This document shows positions 53,884 through 64,000 of a stretch of DNA of 64,000 nucleotides, piece by piece. The DNA is from Lachnospiraceae bacterium. GTDB taxonomy: Bacteria; Bacillota; Clostridia; Lachnospirales; Lachnospiraceae. The position numbers and the translations under genes were made by a program. Positions within the stretch are counted from its first letter, which is position 1, and every line of letters begins with the position of its first letter. Location: contig JAFUMV010000117.1 of NCBI GenBank assembly GCA_017482485.1, positions 22,023-86,022 on the forward strand, read 5' to 3'. The notes below the pieces were generated by a model. That model worked only from the letters and a program-made list of their open reading frames with translations. It searched no databases and was not told the origin of the DNA.

Positions 53884-54759
53884 ATGGCAGGAAGCAGATA
53901 TGAATTAAACAAAGAATTGGCGCAGATGTTAAAGGGCGGCGTTATTATGGATGTTACGACTCCGGAACAGGCTAAAATTGCAGAGGAAGCAGGAGCATGT
54001 GCCGTAATGGCATTGGAAAGAATTCCGGCGGATATCAGAGCTGCAGGAGGCGTTTCGAGAATGAGCGATCCCAAAATGATCAAGGGAATTCAGGAAGCGG
54101 TTTCGATTCCGGTTATGGCAAAATGCAGAATCGGTCATTTTGCGGAAGCTCAGATACTGGAAGCAATTGAGATTGACTATATCGATGAAAGCGAGGTGCT
54201 TTCCCCGGCAGATGATGTATATCATATTGATAAGACAAAGTTTAAAGTACCATTTGTATGCGGTGCAAAGGATTTGGGAGAAGCCTTGAGACGAATTGAA
54301 GAAGGAGCTTCCATGATCCGGACCAAAGGTGAACCGGGAACCGGCGATGTGGTGCAGGCAGTGCGGCATATGAGAAAAATGAATCAGGAAATTGCAAGGA
54401 TTACTTCCATGCGGGAAGATGAGCTTTTTAATACCGCAAAGGAGCTTCAGGTGTCCTATAATCTGGTAAAATACGTGCATGAAAACGGAAAGCTTCCGGT
54501 TGTCAATTTCGCAGCAGGCGGTGTGGCAACACCTGCGGATGCAGCCCTCATGATGCAGTTGGGGGCAGAAGGTGTTTTTGTCGGTTCGGGAATTTTTAAA
54601 TCCGGCGATCCGAAAAAGCGCGCAGCAGCAATTGTAAAAGCAGTAACAAATTATCAGGATGCCCGGATGCTCGCTGAGCTTTCTGAAGATCTCGGAGAAG
54701 CCATGGTGGGCATCAACGAGCAGGAAATTGAGCTGTTAATGGCAGAGCGGGGAAAATAA
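53884..54759 (+). CDS. pdxS: Pyridoxal 5'-phosphate synthase lyase subunit PdxS
   Basis: This is a 291-residue enzyme that builds PLP from ribose 5-phosphate, glyceraldehyde 3-phosphate and ammonia supplied by PdxT. The V-I-M-D-V-T start, the M-A-K-C-R-I-G-H block with the catalytic Lys, and the late [15 protein letters not shown] block are conserved. It forms dodecamers with PdxT. The ribosome site GGAGAAAAA precedes ATG 53884. pdxT starts one base after its stop codon. Confidence 0.96.
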
Positions 54760-54760
54760 A

Positions 54761-55363
54761 ATGGTAATTGGCGTTTTGGCGCTGCAGGGCGCTTTTATTG
54801 AACATGAGAAAGTTCTGAAATCGCTGGGAGCAGAATGTTTTGAAATTCGTCAAAAGAAGGATCTGGAAAGACACATGGACGGGCTGGTTCTTCCCGGCGG
54901 TGAAAGTACTGTGATGGGGAAACTGATGGTTGAACTGGACCTGTTTGAAAATTTAAAAGAACAGATTCTAAATGGGCTTCCTGTTTTCGGAACCTGCGCA
55001 GGGTTGATTCTTCTTGCTCAAAATTTGTCAAATGATACGAAAAAATATTTTGGCACGCTGCCTGTCACGGTAAAACGAAATGCCTACGGAAGACAGCTGG
55101 GAAGTTTTTCAAAAGAAGAAGAGATGAAATATGTCGGAAAAATTCCGATGACTTTTATCCGGGCACCTTATATAGAAAGTGTACGCGGAGATGTGGAGGT
55201 GCTGGCGAAGGTAGACGGAAATATCGTAGCGGTGCGGTATGGAAATCAGCTTGGAATTTCTTTTCATCCTGAAGTAACCCAAAACAGTGCTGTGCATGCA
55301 TATTTTCTGAAAATGTGCAGGCAAAAACAAAATGCCCTGAAGACCCTTTCAGGGATTGGGTAA
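54761..55363 (+). CDS. pdxT: Pyridoxal 5'-phosphate synthase glutaminase subunit PdxT
   Basis: This is a 200-residue class I glutaminase that delivers ammonia to PdxS. The catalytic Cys is in F-G-T-C-A-G-L, and the His/Glu pair in S-F-H-P-E. The early L-P-G-G-E-S-T forms the oxyanion part. It is tightly coupled to pdxS, with one base between stop and start. A terminator follows at 55383. Confidence 0.95.
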   Translation: MVIGVLALQGAFIEHEKVLKSLGAECFEIRQKKDLERHMDGLVLPGGESTVMGKLMVELDLFENLKEQILNGLPVFGTCAGLILLAQNLSNDTKKYFGTLPVTVKRNAYGRQLGSFSKEEEMKYVGKIPMTFIRAPYIESVRGDVEVLAKVDGNIVAVRYGNQLGISFHPEVTQNSAVHAYFLKMCRQKQNALKTLSGIG

Positions 55364-55382: not shown

Positions 55383-55413
55383 GGCCTGTCTTAAGACAAA
55401 GACAGGCCTTTTT
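55383..55413 (+). terminator. Terminator after pdxT
   Basis: GGCCTGTCT (55383-55391) pairs with AGACAGGCC (55400-55408), followed by a T-run. Confidence 0.75.
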
Positions 55414-55528: not shown

Positions 55529-55557
55529 TTGACAACTGATCTTAAGAGGAGTATAAT
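55529..55557 (+). promoter_or_regulatory. Perfect SigA promoter of the sulfur operon
   Basis: TTGACA at 55529-55534 and TATAAT at 55552-55557 with a 17-base spacer, both exact consensus. The leader peptide starts about 40 bases after the expected transcript start. Confidence 0.9.
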
Positions 55558-55572
55558 ATTCTAAAATAAAAC

Positions 55573-55587
55573 ATACTTAAATAGTAG
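55573..55587 (+). promoter_or_regulatory. Possible Rrf2-type operator
   Basis: ATACT-TAAAT-AGTAG is an imperfect inverted repeat (last base differs) placed just downstream of the promoter. Rrf2-family regulators of cysteine and iron-sulfur metabolism (CymR, IscR) bind similar boxes. The regulator itself is not in the window, so this is an inference. Confidence 0.35.
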
Positions 55588-55605
55588 GTTAGAGGGAGAA
55601 AGTAT

Positions 55606-55683
55606 ATGAAGAATGTGATAGCGTATAGATTCATGTGTAATGTGATGTGCTGCTGTCAGGTTGTATGTATGAATACAACTTAA
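55606..55683 (+). CDS. Cysteine-rich leader peptide, 25 residues
   Basis: ATG 55606 is preceded by GAGGGAG at 55592-55598. Of 25 codons, five are Cys: residues 11, 15, 16, 17 and 21, with a run of three (TGC TGC TGT at 55648-55656), plus four Met including the start. It has no other features of a functional protein. It sits between a consensus promoter and a terminator, upstream of a sulfur operon. Cys-rich leader peptides act as attenuators: when charged tRNA-Cys is scarce the ribosome pauses at the Cys codons and changes folding downstream. A small hairpin (55660-55679) lies in its last codons. Confidence 0.75.
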   Translation: MKNVIAYRFMCNVMCCCQVVCMNTT

Positions 55684-55693
55684 TTTCTCATGC

Positions 55694-55703
55694 CTATGAT
55701 ACC
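55694..55703 (+). promoter_or_regulatory. Candidate antiterminator arm
   Basis: TATGATACCT can pair with AGGTACCATA at 55731-55740 (9 of 10 pairs), which is the 5' arm of the terminator hairpin. The two structures exclude each other. Confidence 0.5.
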
Positions 55704-55728
55704 TCGTACATTTTTGAACGCAAAAGAT

Positions 55729-55758
55729 GCAGGTACCATAATGGTACCTGCTTTTTTA
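55729..55758 (+). terminator. Attenuator terminator
   Basis: GCAGGTAC (55729-55736) pairs with GTACCTGC (55744-55751) around CATAATG, or a longer 11-bp form with a tight loop, followed by TTTTTTAT. It lies 45 bases after the leader peptide stop and before all structural genes. Confidence 0.8.
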
Positions 55759-55793
55759 TACGACAGGAAACTTCGTTTCCCGTCGTATAAAAA
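55753..55793 (+). promoter_or_regulatory. Second long hairpin overlapping the terminator T-run
   Basis: TTTTTATACGAC (55753-55764) pairs with GTCGTATAAAAA (55782-55793), with an inner GGAAA/TTTCC stem and a CTTCG loop. Smaller GC-rich hairpins (CCCCTCCGGGG near 55795 and others) follow to about 55880. The T-run of the terminator is the 5' arm here, so the two structures compete. Confidence 0.6.
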
Positions 55794-55924
55794 GCCCCTC
55801 CGGGGGATGCGTACTCGCACGCGGCGAAATTGTCGCTTACGCGACCGCGCTTGACGCGGAGTGCGCGCTATTGCACACACTTTTTTATGACATATATATT
55901 AATGATTAACAGGAGGCGCTGGCG

Positions 55925-56077
55925 ATGCCCAATTCAGAAGAAATAAAAAAGGAATCCTATTTAAATATCATAAATAACCTGGTTAAAGACATGAAATATG
56001 GAATGATTACCGTAATAGTCCAGGATGGAAAAGTAATCCAGATTGATAAAACAGATAAAATCAGATTGAAGAGCTGA
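55925..56077 (+). CDS. YezD-like small protein (DUF2292)
   Basis: This is a 50-residue protein. The Y-G-M-I-T-V-I-V-Q-D-G-K-V-I-Q-I-D-K core and the closing K-I-R-L-K are characteristic of the YezD/DUF2292 family, short proteins often encoded next to cysteine and sulfur assimilation genes. Its function is unknown. AGGAGG at 55911-55916 gives a spacing of 8. It is the first structural gene after the attenuator. Confidence 0.8.
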   Translation: MPNSEEIKKESYLNIINNLVKDMKYGMITVIVQDGKVIQIDKTDKIRLKS

Positions 56078-56115
56078 CCGGAAAAGTTGCCCGGAATGAG
56101 GATGGTGTGAAGCGC

Positions 56116-56547
56116 ATGTTGGTTTTTCAAAAAGACACAGTGGACAGGATCTGTTCTCATGCACAGAGCGAATATCCGGAGGAATGCTGCGGAATTCTGC
56201 TGGGCAGGCGACAGGGAGGACAAAGAATTGCATGCGGAGCAATTCAAACCGAAAATATGATGGGTGAAGGAAAAAAGGCAGCTCATTTTATGATAAATCC
56301 GATGGAAATTGTAAAGGCTGAATTATCTGCAGAGAGAAAAAAACTTGAGATTATAGGGTTTTATCATTCACACCCGGATTATGAAGCGGTTGCCTCCAAG
56401 GAAGATACGCTTCATATGATCGAAGGGTATTCGTATCCAATAATCTCTGTAAAAAATGGAATATGCGTCGGACTGAAAAGTTTTGAAAAGATAAAGCAAA
56501 CGGATACAGTCGCAAAAGAAGAAAATATTTTGGCAAAGGAGAAGTGA
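56116..56547 (+). CDS. JAMM/MPN+ metalloprotease (first copy)
   Basis: This is a 143-residue Zn peptidase of the JAMM family, related to Mec/QbsD-type enzymes that release amino acids or peptides from the C-terminus of ubiquitin-like sulfur carriers. The complete motif is seen: Glu22, His84 and His86 in Y-H-S-H-P, then Ser94 and Asp97 at the H-x7-S-x2-D spacing. ATG 56116 is preferred to GTG 56107 for spacing to the AGGATGG site. Its stop is one base before the MoaD-E1-rhodanese start, so it probably acts on that protein or on the ThiS-like carrier. Confidence 0.88.
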   Translation: MLVFQKDTVDRICSHAQSEYPEECCGILLGRRQGGQRIACGAIQTENMMGEGKKAAHFMINPMEIVKAELSAERKKLEIIGFYHSHPDYEAVASKEDTLHMIEGYSYPIISVKNGICVGLKSFEKIKQTDTVAKEENILAKEK

Positions 56548-56548
56548 A

Positions 56549-58003
56549 ATGCAAATCTCAGTATATGTCTCAGCAACATTACGGACTTTTGTAAACCGAA
56601 AAGCAAAGATAGAAATAGAAGGAAATAATGTCCGAAAAATATTGGAGCGGCTGCAGGATGAATATCCGGAAAGCAAAGCTTTGTTTGAGGAAGATGGAAC
56701 ACTCAAACCTTTTGTGAGTGTGTACCTGAATGAGGAAAGAGTTTCGGAACAATCAGAGACTTCTGTACAGGAGGGCGATCAGATTTTGCTGCTGCCGGCA
56801 ATTGCAGGAGGCGCACCTGCAGAAAGCGTAATCTCCGATGAAAGAAGAAAACAGGTGGCTCTGGACGATTCCGAAATAGAACGATTCAATAAGCATTTGA
56901 TGCTTCGTGAAATCGGAGTCAAAGGACAAAAGCGAATAAAAGCCGCTAAGGTTCTGATTATCGGACTTGGATCGCTTGGTTCTCCGGTAGTACAGTATCT
57001 GGCAGCTGCCGGTGTCGGAACCATCGGAATTGCAGATTTTGATGAAGTTTCTCTGGGCAATTTACAAAGTCAGGTCATTCACGGAACCAGAGATGTGCAT
57101 CGGCCGAAAATTGCATCAGCGAGAGATTCGATCAAGGCAATCAATCCGAAAATTAAAATCGAAACGCATAATGAGAAATTAGAGGTAGACAACATTGCAG
57201 ACATTATAGAGGATTATGACATCATTGTGGATTGCACAGACAATTATAAGTCAAGATATTTGATCAATGATGCCTGCGTGCTTTTGGAAAAACCGGTAGT
57301 GTTTGGAGCCATGTATCAGTTTGAGGGGCAGGTAAGTGTCTTTGATGCAAAATCAGGCCCATGCTTTCGGTGTCAATTCCCGGCTCCGCCGCCGTCAGGG
57401 CTGGTACCCACCTGTGCGGAAGGCGGTGTGATCAGTCCGTTGCCGGGAATTATCGGCAGTATTCAGGCAAATGAAGTTTTGAAACTCATCATTGGCGGCG
57501 GTGAAAGTCTGGCAGGAAAAATGCTGGTGGTGGATACATGGAATAACCATTCATCGGTTCTTCGTATCCATAAAAATGATAATTGTCCCATCTGCGGCAA
57601 AAATCCATCCATAACAGAGATAGAAACCTTTGACTATGAGGATTTTTGCGGATTGAAACAGGAAGAAAATGAACTTTTGGTAGAAGCAATTGAGGCGGAA
57701 GAATTAGCTGCAAGGATTGAAAAAGGGGATCCGTTGACGATTGTAGATGTAAGGGAGCCTCATGAAAGAGCGATTCAACGTTTCCCGAATGCAATTGTAA
57801 TACCAATCGGGCAGCTGGCAAGAAGGCAGAAGGAACTGGATCCTGATGTTGACACAATTTTTATCTGCAGAGAAGGAAAGAGAAGCATTCTGGCAATCAA
57901 TACATTGAGAGAAGCCGGATATAAAGGGCCGATGTACAGCTTAAAAGGCGGCATCGAATCAGCCAAAAATATTATTTTTTCTAATGAAGGAGCATGGTTG
58001 TAA
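56549..58003 (+). CDS. MoaD-E1(ThiF/MoeB)-rhodanese triple fusion
   Basis: This is a 484-residue protein. Residues 1-88 are a MoaD-type ubiquitin-like sulfur carrier whose family C-terminal Gly-Gly is Gly87-Gly88, here followed directly by more protein. Residues 110-370 are an adenylating E1: G-L-G-S-L-G at 139-144, a V-P-T-C block, and two Zn Cys pairs (C-F-R-C and C-P-I-C). Residues 390-484 are a rhodanese with active Cys440 in I-F-I-C-R-E-G. The E1 would adenylate a carrier Gly, and the rhodanese would supply persulfide. The internal Gly-Gly needs cleavage to become usable, for which the JAMM gene upstream is the natural candidate. Good AAAGGAG site. Confidence 0.9.
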   Translation: MQISVYVSATLRTFVNRKAKIEIEGNNVRKILERLQDEYPESKALFEEDGTLKPFVSVYLNEERVSEQSETSVQEGDQILLLPAIAGGAPAESVISDERRKQVALDDSEIERFNKHLMLREIGVKGQKRIKAAKVLIIGLGSLGSPVVQYLAAAGVGTIGIADFDEVSLGNLQSQVIHGTRDVHRPKIASARDSIKAINPKIKIETHNEKLEVDNIADIIEDYDIIVDCTDNYKSRYLINDACVLLEKPVVFGAMYQFEGQVSVFDAKSGPCFRCQFPAPPPSGLVPTCAEGGVISPLPGIIGSIQANEVLKLIIGGGESLAGKMLVVDTWNNHSSVLRIHKNDNCPICGKNPSITEIETFDYEDFCGLKQEENELLVEAIEAEELAARIEKGDPLTIVDVREPHERAIQRFPNAIVIPIGQLARRQKELDPDVDTIFICREGKRSILAINTLREAGYKGPMYSLKGGIESAKNIIFSNEGAWL

Positions 58004-58104
58004 ATTTTCACTGATGGCAGAAATGCGAATTCTGACAGAATAACTGCAGGCAGACTCAGAGAAAATTTTACATAAAAATTAAAGCAGAACAGGAGGTCAT
58101 GAAA

Positions 58105-59052
58105 ATGGCAAAAGAAGAACAGGGTATTAATGCGTTAGGTGCTCAGGCAGCATATAATCTGGCCAATGTGACGAAAACAAAGCCGCAGTATGGTGCTCTG
58201 ACACCAAAGTGGTTAACAAAGGTGCTGGAATTTAAGGGTCTGGAGACAGGCATCTACCGCGTCAACAAGGTAGTGGAAGGAGAAACACCTCTGGATGTTT
58301 TATGCAGTCAGACAAAGAAATCAGACATTATTCCGGATGGATATGTTGCATATGAAACAGAGCCGAGAGAATATCGTTTAAATTCCATTTCCACCATCAT
58401 CAATGTCAATACTGCAATTGAGGATGTATATGGTGCGCCTTATGATCAGGTAAAAGAACAGCTGGCTCTGGCAATTGAGAGCTTAAGAGAAAGACAGGAA
58501 AGTCAGCTGATCAACAATGATGATTATGGACTTTTGAAAAATGTGCCTGATTCCCAGAGAATTCAGTCCCGGACAGGAGCGCCCACACCGGATGATCTTG
58601 ACGAACTGATCACAAAGGTTTGGAAAGAGCGTTCTTTCTTCCTGGCTCATCCGAGGGCAATTGCCGCATTTGAAAGAGAATGCACAAAGAGAGGAGTTCC
58701 GCCTGTAACAGCAAATATCGCCGGTGGCACCTTTATTCTCTGGAGAGGAATTCCGATCATTCCCACAGATAAGCTTCTGGTTGACGGATTAAAAAACCCG
58801 AAGAGTCAGAGCGGTAAGACCAATATTCTTCTGGTTCGTACAGGAGAAGCAAAGCGCGGCGTTATCGGACTTTACCAGGCAGGCATGAAATATGAACAGT
58901 CAAGAGGTTTATCTGTAAGATTCAGAGGAATTGATGACAAAGGAGTAGCATCTTATCTTTTATCTTTATACTGCTCAGCAGCAATTTTAGCAGACGATGC
59001 AATTGCAGTATTGGAAGATGTTGAGGTAGGTGAGTATTATGACTACGAATAA
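58105..59052 (+). CDS. Family 2A encapsulin shell protein
   Basis: This is a 315-residue HK97-fold shell protein of encapsulin family 2A. The N-terminal N-L-A-N-V-T-K-T-K-P arm, L-T-P-K-W-L-T-K-V-L-E-F, Y-R-V-N-K, the central I-E-S-L-R-E-R-Q-E block with L-I-N-N-D-D-Y-G-L-L, R-T-G-A-P-T-P-D-D-L-D-E-L, and F-L-A-H-P-R-A-I-A-A-F are all clear. Family 2A shells encapsulate cysteine desulfurase, and one studied case stores elemental sulfur. It lacks the cNMP domain of family 2B. ATG 58105 is chosen (AGGAGG 8 bases upstream) over ATG 58099. It overlaps the cargo gene by 14 bases, which couples shell and cargo synthesis. Confidence 0.95.
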   Translation: MAKEEQGINALGAQAAYNLANVTKTKPQYGALTPKWLTKVLEFKGLETGIYRVNKVVEGETPLDVLCSQTKKSDIIPDGYVAYETEPREYRLNSISTIINVNTAIEDVYGAPYDQVKEQLALAIESLRERQESQLINNDDYGLLKNVPDSQRIQSRTGAPTPDDLDELITKVWKERSFFLAHPRAIAAFERECTKRGVPPVTANIAGGTFILWRGIPIIPTDKLLVDGLKNPKSQSGKTNILLVRTGEAKRGVIGLYQAGMKYEQSRGLSVRFRGIDDKGVASYLLSLYCSAAILADDAIAVLEDVEVGEYYDYE

Positions 59053-60700
59053 TTTTGGAGGGTATGCCGCAGATTTGGGGTTGCCTTCCGAAGTGGAGCT
59101 GGAAAAGCTTGCCAATCAATTATTTTCAGATATTGACGGAAGTCTTCTGGAGCCGCAGGTATGTGCAGACGGTATTGAAAAACTTGTAACCACCGGTGAT
59201 ACCGGGGTGGTTGATACTGCTGCCAATAAAGCTTCAAGAGTATTTGGCGGACAGCTTGGTGTATCGGATTTTGAAAATATTCTTGGAGAATTAAAGCGGG
59301 AATTCCGCTATGATGAGGCATCTGAAAACAGAGGAGGTTATTCTCCTTCCGTGATTTCAGAAAAGCAGGCGGCATCTGAATCTGAGATAAAGGTACAGAC
59401 GGCTGCCGGCGATCCGGGTGGAATTTCGAAGAATAATACCGGTTCTGCTCCCAACACCGTAGGGGGACAGAAGAACAACAGCCAGATTGTTATCGGAACA
59501 AAAACGCTGGAACAGATTCGTCAGGATTTCCCGATTTTACAGGAAAAAGTAAATGGCAATCCATTAATCTGGCTGGATAACGGTGCGACTACCCAGCGGC
59601 CGAAGCAGGTGATTGACCGACTCAGCTATTATTATGAACATGAAAACTCCAATGTGCACCGAGGTGCGCATACCCTGGCGGCAAGATCCACAGATGCCTT
59701 TGAAAATGCGAGACAGATTGTTGCAGACTTTATCGGTGCTCCTTCCAAAGATAATATCGTTTTTGTCAGGGGTACTACTGAAGGAATCAATCTGATTGCA
59801 CATTCCTATGTAAAGCCGCTTCTTCAGCCGGGAGATGAAATTATCGTATCCTTACTGGAGCATCATGCCAATATTGTTCCGTGGCAGCTAATCGCACAGG
59901 AAACGGGGGCTGTGATCAAAGTCATTCCGGTAGATGAGTCGGGACAGCTGATACTTTCCGAATATGAAAAACTGTTTACAAAAAGAACAAAATTCGTTTC
60001 GGTGACACACGTTTCCAATGTACTTGGAACCATTACACCGGTGGCTGAGCTTGTTGCGATCGCCCATCGGCATGGAGTGCGTATCCTGATTGACGGAGCG
60101 CAGTCTGTAGCACATATTCCGGTGAACATCACTGCTTTGGATGCTGACTGGTTCGTATTTTCAGGACATAAAATTTATGCTCCGACAGGAATCGGTGCTG
60201 TTTACGGGAAAAAGGAAGTTCTGGAAGAGGCAAAGCCGTATCACGGCGGCGGCAACATGATTAAGGATGTTACCTTTGAGAGAACGATCTATAATCCCGC
60301 ACCGAATAAGTTTGAAGCCGGAACAGGAAGTATTGCTGACGCAGTAGGCCTTGGGGCAGCGTTAGAATATTTAACCAAAATCGGGATGGCGTCCATCAGC
60401 CAATATGAGCATGAGCTTGTAAGTTATGGCATGAAGGAGCTTGCAAAGATCAAAGGCCTTCATTTGATCGGTACTGCAGCCAATAAATCCAGTGCTTTGT
60501 CATTTGTATTTGATGGGGTTTCCAATGATACGGTTGGGCAAAAGCTGGACCAGAACGGAATTGCGGTACGTGTCGGCCACCATTGTGCACAGCCGATTTT
60601 AAGGCACTATGGTCTGGAAAGTGTTGTGCGTCCTACCCTGGCATTGTACAACACCTTTGAGGACATTGATACGCTGGCAAAAGTATTAAGATCACTGTAA
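59039..60700 (+). CDS. Cysteine desulfurase, encapsulin cargo with N-terminal loading domain
   Basis: This is a 553-residue PLP enzyme of the SufS-like type that takes sulfur from cysteine as a persulfide. The catalytic part covers about residues 160-553, with PLP Lys378 in S-G-H-K-I-Y-A-P-T-G and persulfide Cys516 in V-G-H-H-C-A-Q-P. The first 155 residues are extra. They comprise a helical start, a segment around 60-95 with a hydrophobic V-F-G-G-Q-L-G core, and a long Ser/Asn/Gly-rich disordered linker. This fits the cargo-loading domains of family 2A desulfurases. GAGGTAGG at 59023-59030 serves ATG 59039. Confidence 0.95.
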   Translation: MTTNNFGGYAADLGLPSEVELEKLANQLFSDIDGSLLEPQVCADGIEKLVTTGDTGVVDTAANKASRVFGGQLGVSDFENILGELKREFRYDEASENRGGYSPSVISEKQAASESEIKVQTAAGDPGGISKNNTGSAPNTVGGQKNNSQIVIGTKTLEQIRQDFPILQEKVNGNPLIWLDNGATTQRPKQVIDRLSYYYEHENSNVHRGAHTLAARSTDAFENARQIVADFIGAPSKDNIVFVRGTTEGINLIAHSYVKPLLQPGDEIIVSLLEHHANIVPWQLIAQETGAVIKVIPVDESGQLILSEYEKLFTKRTKFVSVTHVSNVLGTITPVAELVAIAHRHGVRILIDGAQSVAHIPVNITALDADWFVFSGHKIYAPTGIGAVYGKKEVLEEAKPYHGGGNMIKDVTFERTIYNPAPNKFEAGTGSIADAVGLGAALEYLTKIGMASISQYEHELVSYGMKELAKIKGLHLIGTAANKSSALSFVFDGVSNDTVGQKLDQNGIAVRVGHHCAQPILRHYGLESVVRPTLALYNTFEDIDTLAKVLRSL

Positions 60701-60712
60701 CAGGTGAAGACA

Positions 60713-60762
60713 GGGCTAATCGGATACGGTGCGGTTTCAAACCGGACGTACCTAATTAGCCC
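60713..60762 (+). promoter_or_regulatory. Intercistronic hairpin after the desulfurase
   Basis: GGGCTAAT (60713-60720) pairs with ATTAGCCC (60755-60762), and an inner CGGTTT/AAACCG palindrome lies at 60732-60744. No T-run, so it is more likely a processing or stability element than a terminator. Confidence 0.45.
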
Positions 60763-60857
60763 GATTTGACATGATACAGATACGCGGTACATCTTCCTCT
60801 GATTTGATCGATGGAAGCGGTAAGATTATCCGGAAAAAACGAAAAGGGAGCAAAATC

Positions 60858-61103
60858 ATGGCAGACTATAAAATTGATGACACGGTGGATATCACGAATG
60901 TAAATTGTCCCATAACATTTGTGAAGGCAAAAGTGGCTTTAGAGGAACTTGAAGAGGGCGAAGTGCTGAAAATTCATATGAATGGCGGAGAACCTGCAAA
61001 AAATGTGCCGAGAAGCATGAAGGAAGAAGGACATGAAATTCTTGATTTGCTGGAAAATGCAGATGGGACATATGATCTGATCGTCAGGAAAGTCGGTGAA
61101 TAA
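60858..61103 (+). CDS. TusA-like sulfur carrier
   Basis: This is an 81-residue TusA-type protein. The family C-P-x-P motif is degenerate: Cys17-Pro18-Ile19-Thr20, so the persulfide Cys is kept but the second Pro is lost. The alpha-beta pattern of the fold otherwise holds. GGGAG at 60846-60850 precedes ATG 60858. It probably accepts sulfur from the desulfurase or a rhodanese and passes it on within the operon. It ends three bases before the thioredoxin gene. Confidence 0.85.
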   Translation: MADYKIDDTVDITNVNCPITFVKAKVALEELEEGEVLKIHMNGGEPAKNVPRSMKEEGHEILDLLENADGTYDLIVRKVGE

Positions 61104-61106
61104 CGT

Positions 61107-61424
61107 ATGGCTGAAAGAATAACATATCGCGAATTTGATGAAAAGATAATTGCATATTCCGGACTGGCAATTGTCGATTTTTATTCTGACACCTGTGTGC
61201 CATGTAAAAGGATGTCTCCGGTCCTGGCAGCGCTCGAAAAACAGTATCCGGATGAGGTTTACATTGCAAAAGTCAATGTTGCATATGAAGGGGAGCTGGT
61301 AGAAAAATACCAGATCAGATCTGCCCCCACCTTTTTATTCTTCAAAAACGGTGAAGTGGTGGAACGGTTTTCCGGGGTGAGAAAAAAAGAAGAACTGGAA
61401 CAGATCATTGAAGCAAACAAATAA
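61107..61424 (+). CDS. Thioredoxin-like protein with CVPC active site
   Basis: This is a 105-residue thioredoxin fold with the cis-Pro in S-A-P-T-F. The active site is Cys30-Val-Pro-Cys33 instead of the usual C-G-P-C, which changes redox potential in known variants. The rest, V-D-F-Y-S-D-T-C and F-F-K-N-G-E, is standard. Likely role is reduction of persulfides or disulfides on the desulfurase or carriers, judged from the operon. It has a weak ribosome site and is coupled to the TusA-like gene. Confidence 0.9.
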   Translation: MAERITYREFDEKIIAYSGLAIVDFYSDTCVPCKRMSPVLAALEKQYPDEVYIAKVNVAYEGELVEKYQIRSAPTFLFFKNGEVVERFSGVRKKEELEQIIEANK

Positions 61425-61441
61425 AAGATTGGAGAGAAAAG

Positions 61442-61648
61442 ATGAAAATTACAGTATCCGGTGAAGTAAAAGAAGTTAAGGATGAATTGACAATAGCAGA
61501 ATTAATAGAACTTGAGAATGTTGAAACACCTCAGTATGTATCAGTCTCTGTTAATGATGAGTTTGCAAAAAGTGAAGATTTTAAGACACAGAAACTGCAT
61601 GAAGGGGATATCGTGGAATTTTTGTACTTTATGGGAGGTGGACAGTAA
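61442..61648 (+). CDS. ThiS/MoaD-like sulfur carrier with extra C-terminal Gln
   Basis: This is a 68-residue ubiquitin-like carrier (M-K-I-T-V-S-G-E start, beta-grasp pattern). It ends F-M-G65-G66-G67-Q68. Functional carriers must end in Gly-Gly, so the last Gln has to be removed before adenylation. Carriers with such tails are known where a JAMM peptidase is encoded nearby (CysO/Mec and QbsE/QbsD). Here a JAMM gene lies at 62470. Its stop codon overlaps the E1 start (TAATG), so carrier and E1 are made together. GGAGAGAAAA precedes ATG 61442. Confidence 0.88.
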   Translation: MKITVSGEVKEVKDELTIAELIELENVETPQYVSVSVNDEFAKSEDFKTQKLHEGDIVEFLYFMGGGQ

Positions 61649-62454
61649 TGGCATTTTCTGATGAGCAGTTGGAACGCTATTCAAGACATATTATTCTCAA
61701 AGAGATTGGTGTGAGGGGGCAGAAAAAGCTGCTGAATGCCAAAGTTCTCATTATCGGAGCGGGCGGGCTCGGCGCTCCTGCAGCCATGTACCTTGCGGCG
61801 GCAGGCGTAGGAACCATCGGCATCGCTGATGCGGACGAGGTGGATCTGTCAAATCTCCAGAGACAGATTATTCATGCTACGGATGATGTGGGAAAGCCTA
61901 AAGTGGAATCGGCAAAAGAGACGATGAACAAAATGAATCCGGATGTAACAGTAAAAACATATCATGAATTTGTCTCATCCGAAAACATTCTGGATTTGAT
62001 AAAGGATTATGATTTTATTATAGATGGAACAGATAATTTCCCTGCAAAATTTCTGATTAATGACGCCTGTGTTATGGCTAAGAAACCATTTTCCCATGCC
62101 GGAATCATTCGGTTTAAGGGACAGCTCATGACATATGTGCCGGGAGAGGGCCCCTGCTATCGCTGCGTATTTAAAAATCCGCCGCCGAAGGATGCTGTAC
62201 CTACCTGTAAGCAGGCCGGCGTTATCGGTGCTATGGGAGGCGTCATCGGAAGCCTTCAGGCAATGGAAGCCATCAAATACATTACAGGTGTAGGGGAATT
62301 GCTGACAGGATCACTGCTTACTTTTGATGCAATAAAGATGAATTTTCATAAGGTCAAACTTCCGAAAGCGGATTGTAACTGTGCAGTGTGCGGAACACAT
62401 CCAACCATAACAAAGCTTATCGATTACGAGCAGGCAGAATGTGATGGTATTTAA
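61648..62454 (+). CDS. E1-like adenylyltransferase (ThiF/MoeB family)
   Basis: This is a 268-residue enzyme that adenylates the C-terminal Gly of the carrier. The nucleotide motif is G-A-G-G-L-G at residues 37-42, with R-Q near 71, the D-G-T-D-N block, and Zn ligands C-Y-R-C and C-A-V-C. V-P-T-C marks the region of the MoeB/ThiF catalytic Cys. No C-terminal rhodanese is present, unlike the triple fusion upstream. It is very similar in layout to that protein's middle part. ATG 61648 overlaps the carrier stop; GGAGGTGG precedes it. Confidence 0.92.
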   Translation: MAFSDEQLERYSRHIILKEIGVRGQKKLLNAKVLIIGAGGLGAPAAMYLAAAGVGTIGIADADEVDLSNLQRQIIHATDDVGKPKVESAKETMNKMNPDVTVKTYHEFVSSENILDLIKDYDFIIDGTDNFPAKFLINDACVMAKKPFSHAGIIRFKGQLMTYVPGEGPCYRCVFKNPPPKDAVPTCKQAGVIGAMGGVIGSLQAMEAIKYITGVGELLTGSLLTFDAIKMNFHKVKLPKADCNCAVCGTHPTITKLIDYEQAECDGI

Positions 62455-62469
62455 GGAGCAAAGATTGCC

Positions 62470-62898
62470 ATGATAAAAATATCGAAACAAGATTATAAAA
62501 AAATAGTGGATCATGCGGTTGCACAGCTCCCAAATGAGGCCTGCGGACTGATTGCCGGTAAGACTGACGGGGCAGATAAGCGGATTGAAAAAGTGTATCT
62601 GCTTACGAATACAGATCAATCCAGGGAACACTTTTCACTGGACCCCAAAGAGCAGCTGGCTGCGATCAAAGACATGAGAAGTCTGGGATATATTCCGCTT
62701 GGCAACTGGCATTCTCATCCGGAAACTCCATCAAGACCATCAGAGGAAGATAAACGGCTTGCCTATGACAAAAATGCCAGTTATCTGATTTTGTCGCTGA
62801 TGGAACGGGAAAATCCGGTGCTGAATTCTTTTCATATTGAGGGTACAGATGCAAAGAAAGAAGAACTGATTATAGAGGATCGGTCCGAAATAGAATAG
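62470..62898 (+). CDS. JAMM/MPN+ metalloprotease (second copy)
   Basis: This is a 142-residue Zn peptidase. Glu23, His81 and His83 in W-H-S-H-P, and Ser91 and Asp94 complete the JAMM motif at the right spacing. It differs from the first copy in most positions, so the two are not a recent duplication. It lies 15 bases after the second E1. The most likely substrate is the Gly-Gly-Gly-Gln tail of the ThiS-like carrier, or an amino acid bound to that carrier. The ribosome site AAGGAG is at 62452-62457. Confidence 0.9.
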   Translation: MIKISKQDYKKIVDHAVAQLPNEACGLIAGKTDGADKRIEKVYLLTNTDQSREHFSLDPKEQLAAIKDMRSLGYIPLGNWHSHPETPSRPSEEDKRLAYDKNASYLILSLMERENPVLNSFHIEGTDAKKEELIIEDRSEIE

Positions 62899-62910
62899 CG
62901 AGGAATGAGT

Positions 62911-63342
62911 ATGGGGACTTTGAGTGATGTTGATGAGATTGAAGTAAAGAATATTTCTGCTGAAGATTTCGCCAAATTAGACTTTTCAAAAGTGACACTG
63001 GTGGATTTAAGAGAAGAAGATGAAGTGCTGGTTGCGGGAATAAAAGGAGCGATTAATATTCCTTTTTCAAAATTTTCCAGCAAGCTGAGCAGCATACCAA
63101 AGGATTTGCCGGTATATGTGTTCTGCAGAACCGGAGACTGGAGCGAAGAGGTCGCAGAAATACTGACAGAGCGCGGATACGATACGTATAATGTTACAGG
63201 CGGTTTCAAAGCATATAAAGAATATATCGCAAACAGAAAGCCCGTTGAAATAGATGCCAAAGGATTAAAATGTCCGGGACCGATTGTAAAGGTGGCTGAT
63301 ACGATTCGAAATCTGGAAGATGGACAAAAGGTATTTGTTTAA
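62911..63342 (+). CDS. Rhodanese-TusA protein, N-terminal half of an interrupted fusion
   Basis: This is a 143-residue product. Residues 10-108 are a rhodanese with Cys72 in V-F-C-R-T-G-D. Residues 112-143 begin a TusA domain with C121-P-G-P124 but stop after G-Q-K-V-F-V at an in-frame TAA (63340-63342), in the middle of the fold. The next codons in the same frame continue the missing TusA part and lead into a DsrE-like domain. The TAA is one base away from a Lys, Gln or Glu codon. ATG 62911 is the start, six bases after GAGGA. The rhodanese part should work; the TusA part is probably unfolded. Confidence 0.7.
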   Translation: MGTLSDVDEIEVKNISAEDFAKLDFSKVTLVDLREEDEVLVAGIKGAINIPFSKFSSKLSSIPKDLPVYVFCRTGDWSEEVAEILTERGYDTYNVTGGFKAYKEYIANRKPVEIDAKGLKCPGPIVKVADTIRNLEDGQKVFV

Positions 63343-63375
63343 GCAACGGAAGACGCCTTTGCATCCGATATTGCC

Positions 63376-63957
63376 GTGTGGTGTCAAAGAACCGGTAATT
63401 ATCTGGAAAAGCTGGAAGTGAAGTCTGGGGTGATCCAGGCAACGATTGAGAAACGCACTGTCCAGAACAATACCGTGACAGAACTGCCAAACGGAAAAAC
63501 CTTTGTAGTTTTCAGCGGAGATCTGGACAAAACGATAGCAGCATTTATTATGGCAAACGGAGCTGCTGCGATGGGAAGAGAGGTCACAATATTTTTTACA
63601 TTCTGGGGCTTGAATATTTTGCGAAAACCCAATAAGATAAAGACGGAGAAAACATTGATTGAAAAAATGTTTGGCATTATGATGCCCAGAGGAACCAAAA
63701 AGCTCGGACTGTCCCGGATGAATATGGGCGGCGCCGGAGCCAAAATGATTCGGGCCGTCATGAAGAGCAAGGGAGTTTCATCTTTGGAGGAACTGATTCA
63801 AAGTGCCATAGAGCATGGAGTTCGTCTTGTGGCCTGCCAGATGTCCATGGAAATTATGGGGATCAAAAAAGAAGAATTGATTGATGGTGTTGAACTGGGC
63901 GGAGTCGCTACTTTTCTTGGCTCAGGGGAACAGTCCAATATGAGCCTATTTATTTAA
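63376..63957 (+). CDS. DsrE/DsrF/DrsH-like domain protein, C-terminal half of an interrupted fusion
   Basis: This is an open frame of 193 codons from GTG 63376 with no ribosome site. Its first 20 residues are the end of the TusA domain (V-W-C-Q-R-T-G-N). From about residue 43 there is a DsrE/DrsH-like domain: V-V-F-S-G-D-L-D-K, F-F-T-F-W-G-L-N and late A-C-Q-M-S-M-E with a conserved Cys. In related genomes rhodanese, TusA and DsrE parts are found in one protein, and the frame match across the TAA supports that here. Expression would need readthrough or reinitiation. It may be a decaying gene or a sequence error. Confidence 0.6.
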   Translation: MWCQRTGNYLEKLEVKSGVIQATIEKRTVQNNTVTELPNGKTFVVFSGDLDKTIAAFIMANGAAAMGREVTIFFTFWGLNILRKPNKIKTEKTLIEKMFGIMMPRGTKKLGLSRMNMGGAGAKMIRAVMKSKGVSSLEELIQSAIEHGVRLVACQMSMEIMGIKKEELIDGVELGGVATFLGSGEQSNMSLFI

Positions 63958-64000
63958 AAGAAGATACCGCACCATTCAAAACGGATAGCGTCGGTGCAGA

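Follow-up and report, generated by a model that had tools for sequence, protein, structure and literature searches.

Why should a family 2A encapsulin shell and its cargo cysteine desulfurase be encoded in one run of genes with ubiquitin-like sulfur carriers, E1 enzymes and JAMM peptidases? We address this question for a locus in a 64,000-nt stretch of DNA from a Lachnospiraceae bacterium; "the window" refers to this whole stretch, and its downstream edge reaches the end of contig C88 in an assembly of 3.48 Mb and 153 contigs. Our reading, to which we assign a probability of about 0.55, is that two thiocarboxylate carrier modules have been incorporated into a family 2A encapsulin operon, and that sulfur from the shell-held desulfurase, together with other sulfane sulfur, would be passed into cysteine and/or homocysteine under cysteine shortage. 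We report the gene content and order of the locus, its conservation, the precursor architecture of its carriers and the layout of a leader peptide and terminator upstream of it.

All genes of the run lie on the + strand and extend in one direction from 56107 to 63957, up to the contig end. A JAMM/M67 peptidase of module 1 (JAB1, 56107..56547; Pfam Prok-JAB, 4e-20) is followed by a 484-aa ThiS.E1.rhodanese fusion (56549..58003; Pfam ThiS, ThiF and Rhodanese), the family 2A shell protein (58099..59052), the cysteine desulfurase (59030..60700), a TusA sulfurtransferase whose true start may lie further downstream (60771..61103; PF01206, 1.3e-17), a thioredoxin with the motif CVPC (61107..61424; PF00085, 2.5e-26), a stand-alone ThiS carrier (61442..61648; PF02597), a ThiF/MoeB-type E1 (61648..62454; PF00899, 5e-91), a second JAMM/M67 peptidase (JAB2, 62470..62898; Prok-JAB, 1e-24) and a rhodanese-TusA-DsrE reading frame that contains a stop. 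Module 2 (60771-62898) thus brings together ThiS, a rhodanese-free E1, a JAMM peptidase and TusA. A preliminary description had listed these genes in one direction with gaps mostly under 100 bases. All are present on one strand with Pfam or NCBIfam support (two each of Prok-JAB, ThiF, ThiS, Rhodanese and TusA, a thioredoxin, an SrpI-like shell and a SufS-type desulfurase), and the gaps from JAB1 to the last gene measure -23 to 95 bases. The inventory is to be amended here in that the single ThiS-like carrier it named has a counterpart hidden in the fusion with the first E1 and a rhodanese. No terminator-like site was found by the terminator scan of the + strand from 56107 to 64000, and thus none between shell and carrier genes.

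The assignment of the shell to family 2A is supported by its score of 477.7 bits against the NCBIfam model encap_f2a (NF041162; cut-off 380) and by a 2B model score of 369, below the cut-off of 400. Across its 317 aa Pfam found the SrpI-like domain (PF19307, 1e-92) only, and no cNMP (cyclic nucleotide)-binding domain. Such a domain is carried by 2B encapsulins. PDB relatives include 8t6r and 6x8m. The desulfurase gene adjoins the shell gene, as expected of family 2A, and encodes an N-terminal extension of about 160 aa and a SufS domain scoring above the NCBIfam sufS cut-off. Its match to the cargo model f2_encap_cargo1 (NF041166; 786.2, cut-off 800) covers residues 145-556 and leaves the first 144 residues unmatched. 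The extension holds LEKLANQLFS, a loading-like motif near LARLANEFFS, which is among the cargo loading motifs published for the family 2A desulfurase extension (PMC8049743). A strict pattern of the motif occurs in the extensions of 45 of 76 loci and in 0 of 1520 shuffled extensions; the second published motif gave loose matches only (16 of 76). Among Lachnospiraceae, Oscillospiraceae and Treponema loci the shell is far more conserved than its partners, with a median pairwise identity of 0.91 over 77 sequences, a figure raised by the choice of loci by shell likeness; the fusion reaches 0.63, the desulfurase 0.70 and the module-2 E1 0.84.

Both carriers, judged from their sequences, look like precursors. 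The fusion consists of a carrier (residues 1-88), an E1 (about 114-347) and a rhodanese domain (about 383-471), and Gly87-Gly88 at the carrier/E1 junction (56807..56812) is the predicted JAMM cut site. The two glycines are found at this junction in all 79 fusion open reading frames (ORFs) longer than 330 aa, one of them the window's and 78 from other loci (no such ORF came from L029 or L041), and are followed by a linker that varies in length and sequence. In an AlphaFold2 model of the fusion built with 53 sequences (mean predicted local distance difference test, pLDDT, 78.9; predicted template modelling score 0.65), residues 85-90, which contain the glycines, have a pLDDT below 50 and lie directly past the last carrier strand. 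On an Aliarcobacter plasmid ThiS is a separate ORF ending in ...SIAGGI with the E1 next to it, which suggests that the junction in the fusion corresponds to the carrier C-terminus. The stand-alone ThiS of the window ends in MGGGQ, and in all 55 hits above 45% identity GGG is followed by between one and six residues; in one hit (L063) the reading upstream is odd. The peptidases that would do the cutting keep the JAMM metal-site motif HxH...S..D in 66/66 JAB1 ORFs of 110 aa or more, a set that includes the window's and in which seven differ in the residue after the second His, and in 46/46 JAB2. Cys272, 275, 289, 346 and 349 and the rhodanese Cys440 are invariant in 53 aligned fusions and include two CxxC pairs; the roles of Cys289, the CxxC pairs and Cys440 are presumably those general to the family. 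The fusion E1 scores 380.6 against the MoeZ equivalog, so far under the cut-off of 647 that we describe it as working like MoeZ rather than as being MoeZ.

The shell search of genome contigs gave 524 relatives, of which the best 80 were kept, so that the locus counts cover close relatives only; a neighbour is the nearest among the genes sought by tblastn, and counts are limited to loci with enough flank. The gene next upstream of the shell is the fusion in 79 of 79 loci (one lacked the room to show it), at a gap of 25-279 bases (median 70). On the downstream side the desulfurase comes next in 73 of 73 (flanks too short in seven), and in 66 of 72 the fusion itself is preceded by a JAMM gene (flanks too short in eight). 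This core order, nearly invariant in the 80 best loci, argues that the locus is more than a chance arrangement. As checks, the preliminary description had proposed to look in genomes for a family 2A shell within 10 kb of JAMM, ThiS and ThiF genes and had named the lack of a conserved neighbourhood as a refutation; in these loci the genes do co-occur and the neighbourhood is conserved. Among the 43 wide loci, which have at least 4 kb of upstream and 8 kb of downstream flank, 31 hold a complete ThiS-ThiF-JAMM-TusA module, 34 a serine acetyltransferase (SAT), 34 MetY, nine CysK, 35 either MetY or CysK, and 13 a thioredoxin. The fullest run, L102, comprises adenosine phosphosulfate (APS)-reductase-like and sulfate-activation-like genes, JAB1, the fusion, shell, desulfurase, SAT, MetY, a sulfite-reductase-like gene, TusA, thioredoxin, ThiS, E1 and JAB2; the reductase is named by Pfam NIR_SIR, and the Apr and Cys gene names are a judgement from the sequences. 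The window's genome has two CysK copies elsewhere (78% and 69% identity). A cysteine synthase is absent from the window and is present in the cluster in the nine wide loci with CysK and on the Aliarcobacter plasmid. Neither O-acetylhomoserine sulfhydrylase nor sulfite reductase was found in the window up to the contig end; relatives such as L095 and L102 have them. A role in cysteine or homocysteine formation, which the preliminary description had suggested, fits the SAT, CysK and MetY neighbours of the relatives as well as the Cys-rich leader described below.

Three genome samples, each including its centre and some genomes that are also loci of the best-80 set (both Treponema-family ones among them), set the limits of the association. 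In the window's family (200 genomes, one per genus) the shell occurs in five genomes, and a carrier-to-rhodanese match in the same five and in none of the other 195; leaving out the window's genome, shell and fusion occur in the same 4 of 199. In the Treponema family (118 genomes) both occur in the same two, one of which is the sample centre. In the phylum sample (348 genomes) the shell is present in six and the fusion in two of them (the window's genome and G537, 86% identity); the other four shells, of 44-70% identity (G249, G391, G416 and G510), have no fusion. We therefore rejected a general rule for family 2A, since around these four the sequence retrieved shows no match to a carrier, an E1 or a JAMM; a single rhodanese-domain match (31%) lies in G249, about 5 kb from its shell. 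Plasmid shells of Methylosinus and Azospirillum have no carrier, E1 or JAMM gene among the genes listed within 6 kb on each side, in a gene table that is incomplete. The link between shell and carriers that had been proposed holds as a conserved unit of one shell clade and does not extend to family 2A at large.

This clade is seen in a shell tree of 36 rows (the window, 26 of the best-80 loci, G537, G249, G391, G510, G416 and four plasmid records), in which all 29 module-linked shells group together (97/89), although the tree has several long outer rows, a midpoint root and a bootstrap that had not settled. The nearest relatives of the window's shell are from metagenome-assembled genomes labelled Lachnospiraceae or other Clostridia. 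Treponema falls within the clade and the Aliarcobacter cibarius plasmid is its outermost member; the next row out, G249, lacks the module. The plasmid, pACIB (L143), is typed mobilizable and carries the cluster, cysteine-synthase genes and a sulfate-transport gene. Its order is a cysteine-synthase gene, JAMM, ThiS, E1, rhodanese, shell, desulfurase, CysE and CysK, with insertion sequence elements inserted, one of IS5 type between the E1 and rhodanese parts. Some gut bacteria carry this arrangement, and because the clade is present in the named strains Pseudobutyrivibrio xylanivorans DSM 14809 and Treponema zioleckii kT3, it is testable. Fusions also occur without a shell in the phylum sample: G407, G503, G327 and G508 each have one beside CysK and JAMM, a ThiS.E1 fusion, again in the company of CysK and JAMM, occurs in G361, and G254 has a related fusion with JAMM and no CysK match. 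Clusters of fusion, JAMM and CysK were, it seems, joined to one shell lineage. Pairwise distances of the shell correlate with those of the fusion (r 0.72), desulfurase (0.77) and module-2 E1 (0.69), values that none of 500 permutations reached. In G135 there are two shells, on contigs C26 and C40, each with its own ThiS.E1.rhodanese fusion.

The region upstream of the run bears on when it would be expressed. A sigma-70 type promoter, TTGACA-17-TATAAT (55529..55557, +; 12/12, a consensus match only), precedes a leader ORF of 25 codons (55606..55683, +) with five Cys, including Cys-Cys-Cys, which reads MKNVIAYRFMCNVMCCCQVVCMNTT. An intrinsic terminator (55729..55751, +; a stem of ten pairs and a T run) lies 45 nt past the leader stop. 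In its layout this is a classical arrangement and a candidate cysteine attenuator. Between terminator and JAB1 lies a gene for a 50-aa YezD/DUF2292 protein (55925..56077, +; PF10055, 56.1 bits). The operon had been taken to start at 55529; the start point is indeed that of the promoter, to which the leader, terminator and YezD gene ahead of JAB1 are to be added. Matches to YezD were found by tblastn in 11 other loci, with JAB1 as the next sought gene in ten of these; a literature search on YezD gave nothing useful. Promoter-like sites also occur inside the run (best 11/12, at 63163), and as a class they are not enriched in the window (24 versus 20.6 in shuffles).

A leader with Cys-Cys followed by a terminator was found in 6 of 71 upstream regions (the window and 5 of 70 other loci), versus 0.0 in dinucleotide shuffles, 40 per region; leaders alone, with no terminator required, numbered 17 against 6.7 expected from the shuffles. 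This leader-plus-terminator test replaced a looser screen for Cys-rich leaders (16 of 74 against 9.3 in single-base shuffles), which was dropped as too permissive. A second leader type, recognized by eye in 15 of the 80 loci, has the core C-C/W-R-M-x-x-S/T/A-R-A with small variations (e.g. L050:574, L068:3534, L063:5084 and L034:17218). It precedes MetY mostly, and also CysK, JAB1 or transporter operons, and a terminator comes next in 10 of the 15. Control by a riboswitch was rejected: Rfam at gathering thresholds gave tRNAs only, and no S-adenosylmethionine (SAM) riboswitch or T-box, in the window and the 7 of 80 loci searched.

In 8 of the 80 loci a gene of the run is immediately preceded by a tRNA-Cys-like RNA, which lies upstream of JAB1 (L003:7947-8016, L006:7776-7847, L017:7788-7855), between MetY and the fusion (L021:2388-2458, L023:3548-3618), upstream of CysK (L032:7005-7074) or upstream of MetY (L035:6650-6722, L074:6718-6787). 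A ninth copy follows pdxT in L013. In L003, L017 and L074 the RNA lies behind a Cys leader and terminator, and so may be made only under cysteine shortage. The single copy in the window's genome is on another contig (G000:C107:28043-28115), beside ABC-transporter-like genes. A model made from seven copies scores these at 70-98 bits and other tRNAs at no more than 47.7 in 13 genomes, several of them selected for carrying the RNA. The RNA occurs in 10 of the 200 genomes of the window's family. Seven of these are new, five by CysK and a radical SAM gene, one by MetK and one by a Cys/Met enzyme dependent on pyridoxal phosphate (PLP); four of these neighbourhoods were checked in Pfam and the rest named by likeness. 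By eye, position 73 is A or G in 17/17 copies versus U in 10/10 ordinary tRNA-Cys, and U73 is an identity element for cysteinyl-tRNA synthetase (PMC8762117). The anticodon is GCA in most copies; ARAGORN reads ACA, TCA or CAT in four loci. This paralogous tRNA-Cys-like RNA is found either within the encapsulin operon or next to further sulfur or transporter genes. In five stretches of 3,073 bases each (L155, L156, L157, L160 and L161) it is flanked by a CysK-like gene and a radical SAM gene; L155 also has a DUF2292 gene, NifX- and NifH-like ORFs (by eye) come next in several of the five, and these may represent a nitrogenase-like sulfur-salvage cluster.

Just upstream of the operon promoter, at 53884-55363, are pdxS and pdxT, followed by a terminator-like site of their own at 55383-55408; PdxS matches occur in 4 of the 80 other loci. 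Their products make PLP, the cofactor of the desulfurase, CysK and MetY. At the other end of the run, the last reading frame encodes a rhodanese and the first part of a TusA domain (62905..63342, +), is closed by an in-frame TAA (63340-63342) within the TusA domain, and continues in the same frame with the end of TusA and a DsrE2 domain (63376..63957, +; Pfam DrsE_2, 2.6e-64). A frameshift, our first suspicion, was ruled out by the in-frame stop; intact single-protein relatives are found in L024 and L030 (358 aa in the latter), and the TAA may be a real lesion or an assembly error.

Both halves of the locus belong to known kinds. JAMM-E1-carrier associations of classes 4b, 4c and 4e were described by Iyer et al. 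2006, who tied E1-rhodanese, JAMM and ThiS to cysteine synthase, and SirA, ThiS, E1 and JAMM to O-acetylhomoserine sulfhydrylase (PMC1779556); family 2A shells with SAT and rhodanese neighbours are also known (PMC8346489). The shell half resembles SrpI/CyD of Synechococcus elongatus in shell family, cargo type and N-terminal cargo extension with a loading-like motif, and EpsC, CysK and a rhodanese adjoin the shell on the S. elongatus plasmid, comparable with the SAT and CysK company in relatives of the window's locus. That rhodanese is free, with no JAMM, ThiS or E1 among the genes listed within 6 kb, whereas here it is the tail of a ThiS.E1 fusion accompanied by JAMM and usually by a second carrier module. 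Module 1 resembles the Mycobacterium CysO/MoeZ/Mec/CysM system (Iyer class 4c/4d) in having a carrier, an E1 with CxxC pairs and rhodanese, a JAMM peptidase and, in some loci, CysK. In Mycobacterium, CysO is converted to its thiocarboxylate by MoeZ and receives the serine skeleton through CysM, after which Mec releases cysteine, the sulfur source being given as unknown (PMC3227635); Cys-run leader peptides precede mycobacterial cys operons, there without terminators (PMC1262725). Here, unlike in that system, the carrier is fused to its own E1 and would have to be cut, the module is linked to a shell, and the window's run has no cysteine synthase.

Module 2 is of Iyer class 4e (SirA/TusA), like Wolinella HcyS/HcyF/HcyD/MetY, which was compared by description only: it has a ThiS with a tail after its glycines, a rhodanese-free E1, JAMM and TusA, and relatives add MetY and a sulfite-reductase-like gene. 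The Wolinella system reportedly makes methionine through a protein thiocarboxylate, HcyS, HcyF and HcyD acting with MetY. Unlike in class 4e, a thioredoxin and a rhodanese-TusA-DsrE protein are added here, and the module sits with an encapsulin. MoaX of Mycobacterium tuberculosis is likewise a fusion with a ubiquitin-like carrier and an internal Gly-Gly to be cut, although its carrier is fused to MoaE and cut by a protease that the paper leaves unidentified (PMC4326299), whereas here the fusion is to the carrier's own E1 and a JAMM gene is next door. The two halves in one locus, together with a carrier-E1 fusion and a candidate Cys attenuator, were found in no paper. The preliminary description knew of no described system linking encapsulins to carrier maturation, and likewise no paper was found that joins encapsulins to ThiS, E1 or JAMM, in a search that partly matched ThiS as the word "this"; the neighbourhoods may be listed in the supplementary tables of PMC8049743 and PMC8346489.

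We propose that the parts would work together as follows. A shortage of Cys-tRNA would stall the ribosome on the Cys-Cys-Cys leader and let transcription pass the terminator, as the layout suggests. The desulfurase would be loaded into the shell through its N-terminal extension, and sulfane sulfur from cysteine would be laid down there or passed on, by comparison with the S. elongatus system. Storage of elemental sulfur (S0) in family 2A encapsulins has reportedly been found in later work. The invariant glycine junctions and the tails suggest that JAB1 would cut the fusion after Gly-Gly and JAB2 would trim the tail of the stand-alone ThiS. Each E1 would adenylate its own carrier, and sulfur brought by the fused rhodanese domain, or in module 2 by TusA, thioredoxin or the rhodanese-TusA-DsrE protein, would yield the thiocarboxylate. 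CysK or MetY would then move the carrier-bound sulfur to an amino acid, using O-acetylserine, for which most relatives' runs encode the SAT, or O-acetylhomoserine, and a JAMM peptidase would release the product, as Mec does from CysO-cysteine. We infer this sulfur flow and each of its chemical steps; that module 1 draws sulfur from the shell is suggested by adjacency, co-distribution and the distance correlations. The company of SAT, CysK and MetY, the Cys leader and the encapsulin-free clusters make amino-acid synthesis on the carriers likely. For the hand-over of sulfur from shell to carrier we put the chances at roughly even.

Several observations weigh against this proposal. The two modules are unequally tied to the shell, because the fusion lacks a JAMM gene immediately ahead of it in 6 of 72 loci, and in 12 of 43 wide loci no full second module is found within 9.5 kb. 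Common descent of the whole locus would also produce distance correlations of this kind. Strict leader-terminator pairs occur in only 6 of 71 regions, and the desulfurase scores just under the cargo cut-off. In the window's run up to the contig end there is no CysK, MetY or SAT match (the search for SAT did not extend to the rest of the genome), and the MetY homologues of the window's genome are only 34-39% identical. A store that is filled from cysteine and then used to make cysteine amounts to a circle, unless it serves as a buffer or homocysteine is what is made. Starvation control is odd for a cysteine-destroying enzyme, a puzzle shared with S. elongatus, in which the shell rises under sulfur starvation and knockouts of shell and desulfurase had no growth defect (PMC8049743). 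An alternative explanation is shared regulation, in which shell and both modules belong to one cysteine-starvation regulon, co-expressed or co-transferred, and the carriers take their sulfur from sulfite, thiosulfate or sulfide and none from the shell. The runs of L102 and L095, with apparent sulfate-activation, APS-reductase and sulfite-reductase genes, would offer such a shell-independent source; the incomplete or out-of-range second modules fit it, as do the CysK-JAMM-fusion clusters without a shell, of which the phylum sample holds at least four. We nevertheless consider it unlikely, given that, going upstream from the shell, the fusion comes next wherever there is room for it, and that the two occur together in both family samples, that of the window and that of Treponema. 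S. elongatus, too, has CysK, EpsC and a lone rhodanese beside its shell, so that a sulfurtransferase partner is not peculiar to the module clade.

Two further explanations assign the carriers to other chemistry. The E1-rhodanese part resembles Uba4 and MoeB/MoeZ, and a relay of Urm1/Uba4 or MOCS3 type could be envisaged in which sulfur from the desulfurase goes to the rhodanese domain and the thiocarboxylated carrier serves tRNA thiolation or a cofactor instead of amino acids; the tRNA-Cys-like genes within 8 of the 80 runs would suit it. It seems to us improbable, as the neighbours that can be named are SAT, CysK, MetY and, in a few loci, sulfate-assimilation genes, among many other, unannotated flanking ORFs that may include a thiolation or cofactor gene, and as thiamine and molybdenum cofactor operons are without JAMM genes in the account of Iyer et al. 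(PMC1779556). The same account raises conjugation for JAMM-linked E1s, and the carriers might accordingly be attached to proteins, perhaps shell or cargo, and removed by JAMM, in the manner of small archaeal modifier proteins (SAMPs). The JAMMs match the haloarchaeal desampylase model at 61.8 and 77.9, below its cut-off of 130, and the match of each E1 to the SAMP E1 model likewise stays under that model's cut-off. However, no E2-like family was found among the window proteins scanned, no wider E2 search having been made, and the company of rhodanese, TusA and PLP enzymes speaks for sulfur chemistry; we give conjugation very little credence.

For family 2A encapsulins, the module clade offers a concrete candidate acceptor of the sulfur, an E1-rhodanese fused to its carrier beside the shell, together with a likely product. 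A more specific version of our reading, which we put forward tentatively and at somewhat less than even odds, is that the locus is a regulated sulfur bank: a virus-derived shell would store desulfurase sulfur, and a carrier freed by JAMM from its E1 fusion would withdraw it through the rhodanese tail and deliver it, protein-bound, into cysteine or homocysteine under Cys-tRNA control. If true, this would name the sulfur acceptor of family 2A encapsulins and tie a maturation like that of ubiquitin precursors to a nanocompartment. A carrier-E1 fusion beside a JAMM gene is in itself a simple bacterial model of ubiquitin-precursor processing.

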